A program made the position numbers and the translations under genes. The notes beneath the pieces are model-generated. The model was not told where the DNA came from and made no database searches. It saw only the letters and a list, made by a program, of their open reading frames with translations. Positions 19,865 to 25,439 of a DNA stretch of 64,000 nt are shown here, one piece after another. Numbering within the stretch: position 1 is the first letter of the stretch; each line of letters begins with the position of its first letter. This DNA comes from Isoptericola halotolerans (GTDB lineage: Bacteria; Actinomycetota; Actinomycetes; Actinomycetales; Cellulomonadaceae): the NCBI RefSeq assembly GCF_013149785.1, contig NZ_JABEZU010000001.1, positions 248,001-312,000 of the forward strand. The letters are read 5' to 3'.

Positions 19865-19969
19865 CGCCGGTCATCATCACCTGCCCGGAACAGGCCGGGC
19901 AACGCTTTTTGTCGCGCCCGCCCACCGACGCCGGGTGCACGACCGGCGGCCGGAGCCTACGGTCGAACG

Positions 19970-20311
19970 ATGAGCGAAGCGACGACCGACGAGCTCCTGG
20001 CGATCGACGACCGGCTCGCCGCCGGCTCCGGCGCCGACTACGCGGAGGTGCTCCACGAGGACGCCGTGGTGGTGGTCCCCGGCGCGGTGCTGGACAAGGC
20101 GGGGTGCGTCGCCGCGATGGATGCCTCGCCCGGCTGGGACGAGGTCGACCTCTCCGACGCGCGGCTGGTCCGCAGCGGGGACGCCGCCACCGTCGTCTAC
20201 CGGTTCACCGGGCGGCGCGGCCAGGACACCTACGCCGCCACCCTGGCCAGCACCTACGTGCGGCACGGCGAGAGCTGGCGCCTCCTGCTGCACCAGCACA
20301 CGCCCGACTGA
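19970..20311 (+). CDS. NTF2-like/SnoaL-type small protein (DUF4440-like)
   Basis: 113-residue cone-shaped alpha+beta protein of the nuclear transport factor 2 superfamily. It starts with the usual helix TTDELLAIDDRLAAGSGADY, followed by LHEDAVVVVPGAVLDKAG and the strands ATVVYRFTG, YAATLASTYVRHGESWRLLLHQHTPD, the standard C-terminal ending of DUF4440/ketosteroid-isomerase-like proteins. Function cannot be assigned; such proteins can be enzymes, ligand carriers or immunity-like factors. It is divergent from the phosphotransferase and convergent with the epimerase-like gene. Confidence 0.8.
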   Translation: MSEATTDELLAIDDRLAAGSGADYAEVLHEDAVVVVPGAVLDKAGCVAAMDASPGWDEVDLSDARLVRSGDAATVVYRFTGRRGQDTYAATLASTYVRHGESWRLLLHQHTPD

Positions 20312-20334: not shown

Positions 20335-20997
20335 TCAGCCGCGCAGCGCGTCCGGGATCGGGGTCTCGCCGCTGCGGAACCGCACGAACTTCCCGACCGT
20401 CAGCGGCTCGCGCAACGTGTCGACGACCACCTGGGCGACGTCGGCGCGCGGCACCGCCGACTCCTCGCCGCGGGCCGGGCTCACGCCGTCGGCCACGCGC
20501 TCGATGCGACCGGTGGCGGCGTCCTCGGTGAGGCTGCCCGGGCCGAGGATCGTCCAGTCCAGGTCCGTGCCGCGCAGGTGGTCGTCGGCGGCGAGCTTGG
20601 CGTCCGCGTAGGCGAAGAAGCTCGAGTCCTCGGGGACCCCGTGGTCCGGCACGGAGCCGATCCAGGACACCATGACGTAGCGGGCGACCCCGGCGTCCGC
20701 AGCGGCGTCCATGGAGCGGACGGCGGCGTCGCGGTCGACGGCGTAGGTGCGGTCAGGGCTTCCACCACCGGCCCCGGCCGTCCACACCACGGCGTCCGTG
20801 CCGCCGAGGGCCGCGGCGATCTCCTCGGTGCTCGCGTTCTCGACGTCGAGCAGCAGCGCCTCGGCACCCAGGCCGCGCACCTCGTCGAGCTGCTCGGGCT
20901 TGCGGACCACGCCGATGACGTCGTTCCCGTCCTCGGCGAGCAGGGGGAGCAGACGGCGTGCGACCTTGCCGAGCGCGCCGATGACGACGACCTTCAT
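20335..20997 (-). CDS. NAD(P)-binding epimerase/SDR-like protein of the ECF41 cluster
   Basis: 220-residue atypical short-chain dehydrogenase of the NmrA/YwnB-like group. It starts MKVVVIGALGKVARRLLPLL, a variant of the G-x-x-G-x-x-G nucleotide motif in which the second glycine position is V-A. It continues with AVVWTAGAG and YADAKLAADDHLRGTDLDWT, where the A-Y-x-x-x-K segment resembles the SDR catalytic pair, and GPGSLTEDAATG. The ATG has GGAGG 6 bases upstream. It lies 103 bases downstream of the ECF41 sigma gene on the same strand. Epimerase-like proteins are one of the three enzyme types known to accompany ECF41 sigma factors. Confidence 0.85.
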   Translation of the reverse strand: MKVVVIGALGKVARRLLPLLAEDGNDVIGVVRKPEQLDEVRGLGAEALLLDVENASTEEIAAALGGTDAVVWTAGAGGGSPDRTYAVDRDAAVRSMDAAADAGVARYVMVSWIGSVPDHGVPEDSSFFAYADAKLAADDHLRGTDLDWTILGPGSLTEDAATGRIERVADGVSPARGEESAVPRADVAQVVVDTLREPLTVGKFVRFRSGETPIPDALRG

Positions 20998-21100
20998 GAG
21001 GACCTCCGTGGATGTTCGGGGGAGTGCGGGCGGGTGCTCCCACCGTGACGCACGAAGCGGTCGAGCGCCAGCGCCACGGCTCTCGGGCCCGCGGCGACCC

Positions 21101-22027
21101 TCACACCCGTCGGTCGCGGCGGGCCCGGGCCACCTCCGCGTGCACCGCCCAGGCGTCCGCGACCGGGCCCAGGTGGGCGAGCTTGTCGGGGTTCATCACC
21201 CCGCGGACGGTCTGGATGTGCCCGTCGAGGACGTCGAGCGCCATGACGGCGAGCAGCCGGTGGTCCGTGGTGCGGACCACCATGCCCGGTTGGTGGTTGA
21301 CCTCGTGCTGCTCGATCACCACGTCGCCCGCCGTCAGCAGGTCCCCGAACGCCGTGAACGCCCGGACCACCTTGGCCCGGCCGCTGACGGGGCGCGCGAA
21401 CGCCGGCGCCTTGCCGCCACCGTCCCCGATGACCTGGACGTCCGCGGCGAGGAGCTCGGTGAGCCCCTCGACGTCGCCCTCGCGGAAGGCCTCGACGAAC
21501 CGGGCGGCGAGCTCGGTGCGCTCGCGGCGGTCGGCGTCGAAGCGGGGCCGTCCCTCGGCCATGTGGCGACGGGCCCGGACCGCCAGCTGTCGGCACGCCG
21601 CCTCGGAGCGGTCCACGGCGGACGCGATCTCGGCGAAGTCGACCCCGAAGACCTCGCGGAGCACGAACACCGCCCGTTCCAGGGGGCTGAGCCGTTCCAG
21701 CAGGACCAACGCCGCCATCGAGACCGAGTCCGCGAGCTCGGCCGAGCGCTCCGGGTCCTCGTAGGGGTCGTCCAGCAGCGGCTCGGGGAACCACGTACCC
21801 GTGTACTCCTCGCGGCGCACGCGGGCGGACCGGAGCACGTCGATCGAGATGCGGGTGACCACTGCGGACAGGAACGACTTCACCGACGCGGGCTGCGCCG
21901 TCGTGCCCTCGTAGCGCAACCAGGTCTCCTGGACGGCGTCCTCGGCCTCGCTCACGCTGCCCAGGACCCGGTAGGCGATCGCGAACAGCAGCGGTCGCAG
22001 CGCCGTGAACTCCTCGGTGCGGGACAC
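21101..22027 (-). CDS. sigJ: ECF41-group RNA polymerase sigma factor with C-terminal SnoaL-like domain
   Basis: 308 residues. Sigma region 2 (LLFAIAYRVLGSVSEAEDAVQETWLR) and region 4 (LSPLERAVFVLREVFGVDF and the helix-turn-helix to RARRHM) are followed by a SnoaL/NTF2-like extension. Three marks identify the ECF41 group: WFPEP at 79-83 in the linker, DGGGK at 202-206, and NPDKL at 279-283 near the C-terminus. In this group the extension itself controls activity and there is no anti-sigma factor, and none is encoded here. The GTG lies 4 bases after the stop of the oxidoreductase gene, so the two are co-transcribed from the ECF41-type promoter upstream of that gene. Confidence 0.92.
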   Translation of the reverse strand: MSRTEEFTALRPLLFAIAYRVLGSVSEAEDAVQETWLRYEGTTAQPASVKSFLSAVVTRISIDVLRSARVRREEYTGTWFPEPLLDDPYEDPERSAELADSVSMAALVLLERLSPLERAVFVLREVFGVDFAEIASAVDRSEAACRQLAVRARRHMAEGRPRFDADRRERTELAARFVEAFREGDVEGLTELLAADVQVIGDGGGKAPAFARPVSGRAKVVRAFTAFGDLLTAGDVVIEQHEVNHQPGMVVRTTDHRLLAVMALDVLDGHIQTVRGVMNPDKLAHLGPVADAWAVHAEVARARRDRRV

Positions 22028-22031
22028 GCCG

Positions 22032-23243
22032 TCAGCCTGCCACGCCGACGTCCGCGGTGCGGGACGTGTCGGCCCCGGGCCAGCGGATCGCGCCCGGCAC
22101 CCGGCGGGCGAAGCCGACCGCGGAGACCACGCCGCGCACCTGGAACCGCTTGAACGCGTTCACGCCGGGCCCGGTCCACGCCTTGTCGGTGGCGACGTCG
22201 TCGCGTGTGGTGAGCTGCAGGACCGCGGTGCGGCCGCCCACGCTGACGCAGCGCCCCTGGAACCCGAGGTCGAGCGGGGCCGGGGCGCCGTCGGTCACCC
22301 TGAGGACCTCGTCGCGCAGCACGTCGGCGGCGTGCGCCCCGGAGGGGAACGCGAACTGGCACGACATGCTGTACCGGCCGCCGTGCGGGGCCGTCGCGTG
22401 GCCGGCGTCGCCGACGGCCATCACCTGCGGGTGGGACACGGACCGCAGGGCGCCGTCGGTCACGGCGGCACCGGCGTCGTCGACGGCCAGCCCCGACTCC
22501 CGGGCCAGGGGAGGCGCCGCGAGGCCGCCGCACCACACCGTGAGGTCGGACGGCACCTCGGCGCCGTCGTCGAGCAGCAGCCGGTCGTGCTCGACCGCGC
22601 GGACCCGGGCCCTGTCGACGACCTCGACGCCGAGCCGGTCCAGGCCGGCACGCACATGGCGGGCGGCTCGGGGGCTGAACCACCCGGCTGCCTCACCGGA
22701 GGTGACCAGCCGGACGTGGACGTCGGGCCGGGCCTCGGCCAGCTCGCCGACGGTCTCCAGGCCGGTGAACCCGCCACCGACGACGGCGAGGGCAGAACCG
22801 GGCGCAGCCCGGGCGAACGCGGACCGCAGACGCTCCGCGGCGGCCAGGTCGGCGACGCCGTGGGTGTGCTCCCCACCCGGGACGGGGACCGGCTCGGTGG
22901 TGCTCCCCGTGGCGAGCACCACCCGGTCGAACCCGATCCGGCGCGTGCCGTCCGGTCCGGAGACGGTGGCGTGACCGGCGTCGGGGTCGAGGTCGGCGAC
23001 CCAGCCCTTGAGGAACGAGACCCGCGATCCCAGCAGGGTGCGGACGGACGGTGCGGGGACCTGCCGTCCGATCGCGACGTGGTGCAGGCGCAGCCGGTTG
23101 ACGAACGTCGGGCGCGGGTTGACGACCGTGACGCGCACCCGGCCGCGGGAGCGTCCCGCCAGCCGGACGGCGGCCAGGCCGCCGGCGAACCCTGCCCCGA
23201 CGATCAGGACGTGTGTGCTCGGTGTCTGGTGTGAGGTGCTCAT
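22032..23243 (-). CDS. FAD-dependent NDH-2-like oxidoreductase of the ECF41 cluster
   Basis: 403-residue two-dinucleotide-binding-domain flavoprotein. The FAD motif is VLIVGAGFAGGLAAVRLAG, the NAD(P)H motif is SALAVVGGGFTGLETVGELA, and VMAVGDAGHATAPHGG is the late FAD-contacting segment. The overall pattern resembles type II NADH:quinone oxidoreductases and related disulfide-independent flavoproteins, but no C-terminal membrane helix is obvious. The ATG at 23243 matches the promoter geometry: the CGTC -10 element ends 8 bases upstream, so the message is probably leaderless. It forms a unit with the ECF41 sigma gene, which should activate it. Confidence 0.88.
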   Translation of the reverse strand: MSTSHQTPSTHVLIVGAGFAGGLAAVRLAGRSRGRVRVTVVNPRPTFVNRLRLHHVAIGRQVPAPSVRTLLGSRVSFLKGWVADLDPDAGHATVSGPDGTRRIGFDRVVLATGSTTEPVPVPGGEHTHGVADLAAAERLRSAFARAAPGSALAVVGGGFTGLETVGELAEARPDVHVRLVTSGEAAGWFSPRAARHVRAGLDRLGVEVVDRARVRAVEHDRLLLDDGAEVPSDLTVWCGGLAAPPLARESGLAVDDAGAAVTDGALRSVSHPQVMAVGDAGHATAPHGGRYSMSCQFAFPSGAHAADVLRDEVLRVTDGAPAPLDLGFQGRCVSVGGRTAVLQLTTRDDVATDKAWTGPGVNAFKRFQVRGVVSAVGFARRVPGAIRWPGADTSRTADVGVAG

Positions 23244-23251
23244 GCCCACGG

Positions 23252-23278
23252 GACGAGACAGCGCCCGTGGCTGTGACA
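23252..23278 (-). promoter_or_regulatory. ECF41-type promoter, TGTCACA-N16-CGTC
   Basis: On the minus strand TGTCACA (23278-23272) is followed after exactly 16 bases by CGTC (23255-23252). This is the published ECF41 target-promoter pattern in bases and spacing. The CGTC box ends 8 bases before the ATG of the oxidoreductase, so transcription should begin at or next to the start codon. Confidence 0.8.
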
Positions 23279-23297
23279 CCGGCCCGGCCGGTGCTGG

Positions 23298-23780
23298 TCA
23301 GCCGGCCTGGATCGCTGCCTGTGCGGCGTCCGCCGGGCTGTCGCCCTCGAGGTAGCGCGCGCCGGGCCCGAGCGCTGCGGCGTTGTCGGCGGGGTTCTGG
23401 AGCATGCAGCGCTCCAGGGACAGGCAGCCGCACCCGATGCAGGAGTCCAGCTGGTCGCGCAGCCGCTCGATCGCCGCGATGCGGGCGTCGAGGAGCGGCC
23501 GCCACGACCGGGACAACCGCGTCCAGTCCTCCGCGGTGGGGGTGCGGGCCTCGGGCAGGGTGGCGAGGGCCTCGGCGATCTGGTCGAGGGTGAGGCCGAC
23601 GCGGGAGGCCGTGCGGACGAAGGCGACCCGCCGCAGGGTGGTGCGGTCGTAGCGCCGCTGGTTGCCGGACGTGCGCTGCGAGCCGATCAGCCCGAGCGAC
23701 TCGTAGTACCGCAGCCCCGAGGGGGCCACCCCGCTGCGGCGGGAGAGCTCCCCGATGGTCAGGTAACGCTCGATCGGCAC
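23298..23780 (-). CDS. soxR: SoxR, redox-sensing MerR-family [2Fe-2S] activator
   Basis: 160 residues. The MerR DNA-binding domain (LTIGELSRRSGVAPSGLRYY) is followed by a coiled dimerisation helix and the iron-sulfur motif CIGCGCLSLERC with cysteines 114, 117, 119 and 125, exactly the C-x2-C-x-C-x5-C spacing of SoxR. Oxidation of the cluster by redox-cycling compounds twists the promoter DNA and switches on target genes; in actinobacteria these are usually efflux and flavin enzymes rather than soxS. GTG is used as start. A SoxR-box-like inverted repeat lies just upstream, between soxR and the transketolase genes. Confidence 0.92.
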   Translation of the reverse strand: MPIERYLTIGELSRRSGVAPSGLRYYESLGLIGSQRTSGNQRRYDRTTLRRVAFVRTASRVGLTLDQIAEALATLPEARTPTAEDWTRLSRSWRPLLDARIAAIERLRDQLDSCIGCGCLSLERCMLQNPADNAAALGPGARYLEGDSPADAAQAAIQAG

Positions 23781-23794
23781 GCGGTCCTCCAGGC

Positions 23795-23823
23795 CTTGAC
23801 TTCAAGTGAGGTTGAACTTACAC
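23795..23823. promoter_or_regulatory. SoxR-box-like site and promoter between soxR and transketolase genes
   Basis: Reading toward the transketolase genes, TTGACT is followed 17 bases later by TACACG, a plausible -35/-10 pair. The spacer contains TTCAAGTGAGGTTGAA, with 5-bp inverted arms TTCAA/TTGAA. The left half resembles the CCTCAAGTT half of classical SoxR boxes, while the right half deviates. This is a candidate operator only. Confidence 0.4.
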
Positions 23824-23832
23824 GATCGAAGC

Positions 23833-24531
23833 ATGACCACCACCCGCACCGTCCCCGTGGCGGTCTCCGACCTCGTCGCCCGCGTCACGGGCGACGAGAA
23901 GCACGACCCGAGCGCGCACTCCACCCTCGACGTCGTCTGGGTGCTCTACGACCAGGTGCTGCGCGTGTTTCCCGACGACCCCGAGCACCCCGAACGTGAC
24001 CGGTTCCTGCTCTCCAAGGGGCATGGCCCCGCCTCCACCTACGCCGTCCTGGCGGCCAAGGGGTTCTTCCCCGCCGCGTGGCTCGACGACGTCGCCTCCT
24101 GGTACTCGCCGCTCGGCCACCACCCGGACCGCACTCTCGTGCCCGGCATCGAGATCGGCAGCGGGTCCCTCGGCCACGGCCTGCCGATCGCGGTCGGCAT
24201 GGCGCTCGGGCTGCGCGACCGGTCCCGGGCGCGCGTCGTCGTCCTCGTCGGCGACGCCGAGCTGGACGAGGGCAGCAACGCCGAGGCGATCGCCGTCGCC
24301 GGCCGGTTCGGCCTCGACAACCTCACCTGCGTCGTCGTCGACAACCACAGCGACAACCTCGGCTGGCCCGGCGGGATCGCCGCCCGCTTCGCGCTCGAGG
24401 GCTGGCAGGCGTCCGACGTCGGCACCCACGACCACGCGGCGCTCGCCGCCGCGCTCCGGGGCACCGCCCCCGACCGCCCCACCGCCGTCGTCGTCGACGT
24501 GCCCGGCACCGACCCGGAGGAGGGACGATGA
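23833..24531 (+). CDS. Transketolase, N-terminal (TPP pyrophosphate-binding) subunit
   Basis: 232-residue protein corresponding to the first third of transketolase. It contains RDRFLLSKGHGPASTYAVLA, the G-H-G-x-GSLGHGLPIAVGMALG segment, and VVVLVGDAELDEGSNAEAIAVA leading to VVVDNHSDNLGW, which is the GDxx(E)-NN-type cofactor motif. Two-piece transketolases act on ketose phosphates or, in some pathways, on unusual ketoses. The C-terminal partner follows with an ATGA overlap, so equal production is expected. It is divergent from soxR with a SoxR-like site between them. There are no other pentose-phosphate genes here, so a specialised role is possible. Confidence 0.87.
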   Translation: MTTTRTVPVAVSDLVARVTGDEKHDPSAHSTLDVVWVLYDQVLRVFPDDPEHPERDRFLLSKGHGPASTYAVLAAKGFFPAAWLDDVASWYSPLGHHPDRTLVPGIEIGSGSLGHGLPIAVGMALGLRDRSRARVVVLVGDAELDEGSNAEAIAVAGRFGLDNLTCVVVDNHSDNLGWPGGIAARFALEGWQASDVGTHDHAALAAALRGTAPDRPTAVVVDVPGTDPEEGR

Positions 24532-25439
24532 GCGCCGCCGACCTGCGTGCCCGGTTCTACGCCGAGCTGGACCCGGCGCTCGCCGCGCACCCCGACGCCG
24601 TGCTCGTGCTGGCCGTCATCGGGGCGGGGTACGTCAGCGAGACGATCACGCGACGCCCGGACCAGGTGGTCGACGTGGGAATCCGCGAGCAGGCCATGGT
24701 CGGGGTCGCGGGCGGGCTCGCGCTGGCCGGGCGGCGACCGATCGTGCACACCTTCGCCCCGTTCCTCGTGGAGCGGGCCTACGAGCAGGTGAAGCTGGAC
24801 CTCGGTCATCAGGACGTGGGCGCGCTGCTCGTCAGCGCCGGGGCGTCGTACGACATGAGCTCGGCCGGACGCACCCACCAGGCGCCCGCCGACGTCGCCC
24901 TGATGGCGGCGCTGCCCGGCTGGACCGTGCACGTGCCCGGCCACGGTGACGAGGTCGCCGAGCTGCTGCACCGCGAGGCCGGCGGGGCGGGGAGGGTCTA
25001 CGTGCGGCTCTCGGGACAGCGCAACGCCCGCCCGCAGCCGGTGGACGGCCGGGTCCACCTGGTCCGCGAGGGAGCCGCGAGCGCACCGCTGGTCCTCGCC
25101 GTCGGGCCGATGCTCGACGTCGTCCTCGCCGCCACCGGCGACCTGCCGGTCCGCGTGGCCCACACGGGCACACCGCACCCGCTCGACGCCGCGGGCCTGC
25201 GCGAGCTCGTCGGGCCGACGCCGCGGCTCGCCGTCGTCGAGCCGTACCTGGCCGGGACGAGCGCGGCCGCGGTGGCCGCGGCGCTCGCCGACCGACCGTC
25301 GCGGGTGCGGCACGTCGGGGTGCCGCGAGACGCCGAGCTGCGCCGCTACGGCACCCCCCGCGACCACGCGGCGGCCCACGGGCTCGACGCCGCGGGGGTG
25401 CGACAGCAGGTGACGGAGCTCCTGGAGCGGCCGACGTAG
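24528..25439 (+). CDS. Transketolase, C-terminal (pyrimidine-binding) subunit
   Basis: 303-residue partner of the preceding subunit. The pyrimidine-binding domain shows VVDVGIREQAMVGVAGGLAL with the catalytic glutamate in GIREQAM, then FAPFLVERAYEQVKLDLGHQ, and a C-terminal domain with AVVEPYLAGTSAAAVAAAL. The ATG at 24528 overlaps the previous stop, and GGAGGAGGGA lies directly upstream. A 9-bp hairpin follows the stop, suggesting the two-gene unit ends here. Confidence 0.87.
   Translation: MSAADLRARFYAELDPALAAHPDAVLVLAVIGAGYVSETITRRPDQVVDVGIREQAMVGVAGGLALAGRRPIVHTFAPFLVERAYEQVKLDLGHQDVGALLVSAGASYDMSSAGRTHQAPADVALMAALPGWTVHVPGHGDEVAELLHREAGGAGRVYVRLSGQRNARPQPVDGRVHLVREGAASAPLVLAVGPMLDVVLAATGDLPVRVAHTGTPHPLDAAGLRELVGPTPRLAVVEPYLAGTSAAAVAAALADRPSRVRHVGVPRDAELRRYGTPRDHAAAHGLDAAGVRQQVTELLERPT

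Follow-up and report, generated by a model that had tools for sequence, protein, structure and literature searches.

How many genes belong to an ECF41 sigma factor unit, and does such a unit depend on a single promoter? These questions are raised by a locus of Isoptericola halotolerans that lies in a 64,000-nucleotide stretch of contig NZ_JABEZU010000001.1 (the window; coordinates below are positions in it). The 3.97-Mb genome that holds the window has other Isoptericola species as its closest named relatives (sigma factor identity 89%, 89% and 81%). Four minus-strand genes follow one another in the order of transcription: soxR, an oxidoreductase gene (OXR), a sigma factor gene (SIG) and an epimerase-like gene (EPI). 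The oxidoreductase-sigma-epimerase order had been given by a sequence-only reading, which treated these three genes as one autoregulated cluster; the gene coordinates bear the order out. The comparative analysis points, with a probability of about 0.7, to a two-gene ECF41 unit, OXR-SIG, placed within a soxR-transketolase-epimerase locus, with a leaderless start at the target promoter P1 and a supply of the sigma factor from a second promoter, P2.

The sigma factor and its predicted target gene

Membership of SIG (21101..22027, minus strand; 308 aa, GTG start) in the ECF41/SigJ type, as the sequence-only reading had it, is secure by sequence: domains, curated models, the match to SigJ and the promoter described below all agree. 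The protein contains sigma regions 2 (PF04542, 41 bits) and 4 (PF08281, 46.6 bits), with no region 3 reported, and a fused C-terminal SnoaL_2 domain (PF12680, 29.6 bits, cut-off 27, residues 175-251), in keeping with the ECF41 extension of at least about 100 aa. It matches TIGR02957 with 365.9 bits (cut-off 323.25, residues 5-286) and the SigJ model NF007214 with 325.9 bits (cut-off 271, residues 3-286). The alignment with the structure of Mycobacterium tuberculosis SigJ (PDB 5xe7; 172.7 bits, residues 4-284) includes the W-x-PEP linker and the GKAP and NPDK regions. All three marks that had been named for SIG are present: WFPEP at residue 79, DGGGK at residue 202 and NPDKL at residue 279. The letters of the last two were taken from the earlier reading, and DGGGK does not occur in the literature text searched; the two align with DSNGK and NPDKF in SigJ and may be among the three conserved motifs described for the ECF41 extension. 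The linker has to be qualified, since in the parts of Wecke et al. (PMC3426412) used here it reads WLPEP, one change from WFPEP.

OXR (22032..23243, minus strand) ends four bases before the SIG start and encodes an FAD-dependent pyridine nucleotide-disulphide oxidoreductase of 403 aa (Pfam Pyr_redox_2, 125.6 bits). Its top PDB match is the NADH dehydrogenase-like protein YjlD, followed at lower scores by NADH oxidases, ferredoxin reductases and FSP1. Pyr_redox_2 is among the COE domains listed by Wecke et al. (PMC3426412, in part), and OXR is the predicted ECF41 target and COE neighbour of SIG. No anti-sigma gene adjoins SIG among the eight proteins scanned around the locus (SIG, OXR, EPI, SoxR, two transketolase halves, a DUF4440 protein and an APH-like protein).

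The ECF41 target promoter P1

The published ECF41 promoter is TGTCACA-N16(+/-1)-CGTC before the COE gene (Wecke et al., PMC3426412, in part). Upstream of OXR the same string, claimed previously with a CGTC box 8 bases before the ATG, is exact in bases and spacing. On the minus strand, P1 (23252..23278) consists of the -35 element TGTCACA (23278-23272), 16 bases and the -10 element CGTC (23255-23252), followed by 8 bases and the OXR ATG (23243-23241).

In the 64-kb window the promoter with a spacer of 14-18 matches once, with 0.35 matches expected and at least one match in 26 of 100 shuffles. Genome-wide, the exact promoter has three copies with about 0.85 expected from base composition, which tells against P1 to the extent that the count alone is not beyond chance. 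An exact match within the 250 bases before one given start has a chance of about 2.7e-5; the position of P1, unlike the count, is beyond chance. In all four closest orthologous loci, three from the same genus (L034, L035, L036) and one from another genus of the family (L037), both boxes are exact, the N16 spacer and the N8 distance to ATG are kept, and the spacer bases vary.

The two other exact copies were not accepted as targets. One (L002) falls on the antisense strand where a gene begins that was identified by eye as signal-peptidase-like. The other (L003, G000:C2:265507-265533) is found some 60 nt upstream of the gene for an ABC-transporter ATPase; this site is exact in one close orthologue (L240), has one mismatch by eye in another (L239), and is absent from five matches of about 50% identity (L241-L245). 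Since the L003 site makes up one arm of an inverted repeat, GTGAC..GTCAC, it could equally well be an operator bound by a different regulator.

Leaderless start of OXR

The prediction that the OXR mRNA lacks a leader gains comparative support, together with an outside estimate of the transcription start. In the Sinorhizobium meliloti SMb20029-rpoE9 operon the same promoter string is reported 9 nt upstream of a mapped start (PMC3616915, in part). Nine bases counted from CGTC in the window lead to the A of the OXR ATG, which places the predicted start at 23243 on the minus strand, within 1-2 nt. For the two genes studied by Wecke et al. (PMC3426412), leaders of 22 and 23 nt are given in the text and 31 and 32 in Table 5; as we read it, the difference of 9 would agree with this offset, provided that Table 5 measures from the box.

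Promoters of the form TGTCAC-N16..18-CGT(C/T) were sought up to 2.2 kb upstream of the sigma gene in named relatives, the best 80 of 493 confirmed relatives. Such promoters, 80 in total, are present at 75 of these loci; within 2.2 kb upstream no match was found at the other five (L082, L101, L107, L127, L129). Leaders were recounted with ATG starts only and a 60-codon frame. At the OXR-type loci (OXR identity of at least 55%) all seven promoters are followed by an ATG at N8 (four) or N9 (three). Among the other 73 promoters, one has an ATG at N7-N10 (L102) and two have it at N6; for 59 the ATG is 27-61 nt away, with a Shine-Dalgarno-like stretch in 56 of them. Under a looser rule (GTG accepted, 100-codon frame) near starts appear for six of the 73 promoters, five of them GTG, and the OXR type still gives 7/7. 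At two of the OXR-type loci (L070, L071) the -35 element reads TGTCACG instead of TGTCACA, and at L098 the spacer is 17 bases long.

The sets overlap: L005-L007 and L065-L067 come from the genomes of L034-L036, and L008 from that of L037. With L037 and the window added, there are thus nine distinct OXR-type loci at N8 or N9. The sequences are related and therefore not independent, and the counts overstate significance, which has to be set against the comparative argument.

Alternatively, transcription of OXR might start further upstream, or a longer transcript might be translated from a GTG at 23279. This GTG is indeed in frame, as any such codon must be where N16 is combined with N8; however, it runs into the start of the -35 element, and no P1 transcript would include it. 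Moreover, the start-like codon over the -35 element is out of frame with the ATG in L070-L072 (N9) and L098 (spacer 17, N8), so that what is conserved as the start is the ATG that follows CGTC. We regard this non-leaderless reading as the least probable of the alternatives considered here. The OXR mRNA probably starts at the first letter of the gene. Leaderless genes are common in Actinobacteria, at more than 20% according to the part of PMC3160421 used here. A sigJ gene is listed in the S. coelicolor leaderless table and appears in RIViT-seq data; it was left out of the argument, its membership in ECF41 being uncertain. No description of leaderless ECF41 targets or of a two-promoter layout was found in the open-access library searched, as judged from titles, the beginnings of abstracts and term counts.

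A candidate second promoter before SIG

A candidate extended -10-like element, P2 (TGGCAGGCT, 22034..22042, minus strand), ends 6 nt before the SIG GTG, and the OXR stop codon begins with its final T. The element is identical in the window and the four closest orthologues (L004-L008, including the window), at 6-7 nt from ATG or GTG, and the OXR tail upstream of it varies. In 31 of 65 family ECF41 genes the pattern [TC]ANNNT occurs at offset 6-7 (13 with T first, 18 with C first), compared with a mean of 0.34 per offset over the background offsets 12-69. The 65 genes come from 70 loci, and 79 of the 80 best named loci were usable, the others being dropped by the rule for start choice. In these 79 the motif is found in six (L065-L067, L070-L072), all of the OXR type; it is absent from L098, the seventh OXR-type locus.

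The reported consensus for leaderless genes is TANNNT, some 12 bp upstream of the start (PMC3160421, in part). In P2 the -10 element is CAGGCT-N6-GTG, in the right place but with C replacing the first T. This deviation speaks against P2 as a promoter, as do three further observations. Genome-wide, exact copies of the string close to RTG are no more frequent than in the reversed control (five matches in each). Because P2 runs into the OXR stop codon, its conservation could in part reflect coding constraint. Outside the family, Shine-Dalgarno-like leaders precede 63 of the 79 named sigma genes of the same clade, so that P2 is at best a lineage trait. On the other side, inspection by eye of the SoxR-box promoters in the genus gives the layout TTGACC, 19 bp, CAGGAT or a close variant, 6 nt and ATG, which makes CANNNT-N6-ATG a credible housekeeping form here. 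On sequence grounds, P2 (TGGCAGGCT-N6-GTG) may serve SIG as a separate leaderless promoter of a housekeeping-like kind. The description of the locus as a self-contained autoregulated switch is weakened by this conserved, non-randomly placed element, which suggests a separate supply of the sigma factor.

Extent of the ECF41 unit

EPI (20335..20997, minus strand) encodes an NAD(P)H-binding, epimerase-like protein of 220 aa (NAD_binding_10, 146.1 bits). A soxR relative at E <=1e-30 occurs in 16 of 18 genomes of the genus, and 12 loci were read in addition to the window and L034-L036. In seven of these 12 (L231-L237) an EPI of 65-71% identity is found on the soxR strand with no match to OXR or SIG. 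In 7/7 of these loci lacking OXR-SIG, EPI is within 2 kb of soxR and on the same strand. It directly adjoins soxR in L231, L234, L236 and L237; an opposite-strand DUF4440 gene stands between the two in L232 and L235; in L233, which has no transketolase match, the distance is about 1.7 kb, with other coding sequence between them. The relatives L037, L070-L072 and L098 carry the OXR-SIG pair, and neither EPI nor soxR has a match in the fetched stretch of these loci.

The region upstream of EPI is alignable with and without the OXR-SIG unit. The alignment of L235 with L036 runs through TGTCACA and picks up again where SIG ends; in L232, TGTCACA is preserved upstream of EPI along with some of the spacer. 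Both are promoter scars. In a tree of EPI, SoxR and transketolase pieces, L232 and L235 are near L036, which has the unit, although the closest grouping is weakly supported (0.57). The simplest reading of the alignments is that OXR-SIG was lost as a pair at least in L232 and L235, with different ends and with EPI retained. Loss as a general account is countered by the other five loci lacking OXR-SIG, in which no TGTCAC is found within 300 nt before EPI, so that gain of OXR-SIG in part of the genus is also possible.

The alternative closest to the original description is a classic operon, in which P1 alone drives OXR-SIG-EPI, autoregulation is pure and EPI is a second ECF41 enzyme. The three genes are on one strand with only 4 nt between OXR and SIG, and read-through into EPI across about 100 nt is possible. 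Moreover, among loci with a COE gene before the ECF gene, the part of Wecke et al. (PMC3426412) used here reports the promoter in 97/107 and none before the sigma gene; for this commonest gene order, transcription of the sigma gene has been ascribed to the COE promoter. However, the seven soxR-EPI loci lacking OXR-SIG, the upstream region of EPI that is alignable either way and the -10-like motif before SIG in the window and the four closest orthologues all argue against it, and we consider the classic operon unlikely. The claim that the ECF41 locus carries both an oxidoreductase and an epimerase is not upheld: EPI stays beside soxR when OXR-SIG is missing, and no match to it is found in the fetched stretch of the OXR-type relatives examined from outside the genus. 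EPI is probably outside the ECF41 unit and part of the soxR neighbourhood, and the unit would then consist of two genes.

A DUF4440/SnoaL-like gene (19961-20311, plus strand) is located downstream of EPI in the window, L034 and L035. In L036, L232 and L235 a DUF4440 gene is found between soxR and the next gene of the soxR strand, a local rearrangement.

SoxR and transketolase genes

The soxR gene (23298..23780, minus strand) encodes a redox sensor of 160 aa (TIGR01950, 207.5 bits, cut-off 116.9; PDB 2zhg) with the cluster motif C-X2-C-X-C-X5-C at C114-X2-C117-X-C119-X5-C125. Two genes divergent from soxR encode the halves of a split transketolase (23833..25439, plus strand; Pfam Transketolase_N and Transket_pyr): an N-half at 23833-24531, for which the start ATG 23833 was picked by eye, and a C-half at 24528-25439. 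A SoxR-box-like promoter core (TTGACTTCAAGTGAGGTTGAACTTA, 23796..23820, plus strand) is located 5' of the transketolase genes. It is kept in L034-L036 and, with TTGACCTCAA, in five of the seven loci lacking OXR-SIG (L231, L232, L234, L236, L237). The search pattern was built from this site itself, so its single match in the window is no independent test. The arrangement TTGAC(C/T), 19 bp, -10, 6 nt and ATG predicts a leaderless, SoxR-activated transketolase mRNA. A Streptomyces avermitilis transketolase has been reported with a SoxR site (PMC4146615, in part).

SoxR might also control the whole stretch, with OXR and SIG made by read-through from soxR and SoxR as the true signal input. The end of soxR is about 20 bases upstream of P1 on the same strand, and the SoxR-box-like site is just before soxR. 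Five other members of the genus (L226-L230) have an ECF41 gene 3.2-4.8 kb from soxR, although the ECF41 gene is a different one (42-44% identity) and the soxR is of a different type (58-62%). Against this control, the box is oriented, as judged by eye, as a plus-strand transketolase promoter (-35, 19-bp spacer, -10, ATG) that points away from soxR; L037, L070-L072 and L098 have OXR-SIG and P1 with no soxR match in the fetched stretch; and in L036 a gene on the opposite strand stands between soxR and P1. Control of OXR and SIG by SoxR is thus very unlikely. As a separate observation, a SoxR-box-like site is found beside soxR in four of L226-L230, followed in L227 by a quinone-oxidoreductase-like gene (by eye).

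Proposed mechanism

In the two-gene, two-promoter reading, resting SIG would be supplied by P2 at the end of OXR, and the SnoaL_2 domain would hold its activity down until a signal, perhaps redox-related, releases it. The SoxR and transketolase neighbours, together with the nature of OXR, may point to redox chemistry. By analogy, partial truncation of the extension raised target promoter activity about 20-fold for Ecf41Bli and 120-fold for Ecf41Rsp, and full removal abolished it (PMC3426412, in part); inhibition by the SnoaL domain has further support in a part of PMC8999054. Active SIG would recognise P1, RNA polymerase would start at the A of the OXR ATG or no more than about 2 bases away, and the leaderless OXR mRNA would read through into SIG. 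With P2 supplying resting SIG, P1 would add output and positive feedback and would not be the sole source of SIG. EPI would have an upstream region of its own and belong with soxR and its neighbours.

Class- and order-wide occurrence of the spacing

The pattern TGTCACA-N16-CGTC-N7..10-ATG was scanned in 394 genomes of the class, window included. It gave 69 matches in 58 genomes and seven in the reversed control (as counted from the table), with spacings N7 in 11, N8 in 43, N9 in 9 and N10 in 6; the N8 leaders favour GGGY directly before ATG. The order-wide scan yielded 14 matches in 13 of 396 genomes (N7 3, N8 7, N10 4) and four control matches; the window and L034-L036 account for four of the seven N8 matches. 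A wider scan with N0-30 gave matches in at least 170 of the 394 genomes, its two strands being reported differently and its spacings untabulated.

An ECF41 gene is located within 1.5 kb in 13 of the 24 N8 matches with a fetched locus, four of which are the window and its genus relatives. Behind N8 promoters are sigma genes themselves (L206, L208, L210, L214, L217), epimerase-like genes (L195, L218) and a carboxymuconolactone decarboxylase-like gene (L220; 22.9 bits, just below the cut-off of 23.0), three look-alikes of which have no Pfam model match at E 0.001. Mutually similar short genes follow TGTCACA-N16-CGTC-N8-ATG in four genomes of one family of the class (f38; L207, L209, L212, L213). 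L207, the sole one scanned of these J-domain-like genes, has a J-domain match of 20.7 bits, below the cut-off of 27.8. These four loci have no ECF41 match within 1.5 kb (L213 ends at a contig edge); they are possible distant ECF41 targets.

The data can tentatively be read, at slightly less than even odds, as a widespread leaderless actinomycete subtype of ECF41 with CGTC-N8-ATG, often with GGGY before ATG. It would include oxidoreductase, decarboxylase-like, epimerase-like and autoregulated sigma genes, and in the Isoptericola branch the sigma gene would in addition have its own constitutive leaderless promoter. Against the main, leaderless reading of the locus stand four N8 loci with neither an ECF41 gene nor a recognisable target (L197, L202, L216, L219) and the 26 of 69 class-wide matches in which the spacing is N7, N9 or N10.

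Comparison with known systems and implications

From its sequence features, the unit appears to belong to an established type of system but to have its promoters arranged differently, probably without a leader and perhaps with two promoters. As described in the part of PMC3426412 used here, Ecf41Bli of Bacillus licheniformis and Ecf41Rsp of Rhodobacter sphaeroides likewise have sigma regions 2 and 4, a SnoaL-type extension, the same promoter, a COE enzyme gene before the sigma gene on the same strand and no adjacent anti-sigma gene. In contrast, their targets are carboxymuconolactone decarboxylases with a 22- or 23-nt leader and a ribosome-binding site, whereas the predicted target here, an FAD oxidoreductase gene, lacks the space for a leader, and the sigma gene is preceded by a candidate second promoter. 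The likeness to SigJ of M. tuberculosis (PDB 5xe7) is a match of protein sequence, the two being compared by protein alone. The S. meliloti RpoE9 operon shares the promoter string in an Alphaproteobacterium. With regard to the Streptomyces SoxR regulon, the likeness is the S. avermitilis transketolase with a SoxR site; the part of that description used here (PMC4146615) mentions no ECF41 sigma factor.

For the reading of gene clusters the locus is a caution, since a neighbour of the right annotated type, the epimerase, was counted in, although, to judge from the relatives, it is more likely part of the adjoining locus. ECF41 sigma factors occur widely, and this locus gives two single-base predictions, transcription starts at 23243 and at or near 22027. 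If the leaderless subtype holds, its units would be loaded switches in which resting sigma factor is always present and held by the SnoaL domain. Both response genes would be translated by the leaderless route and could stay on when leadered mRNAs are shut down.

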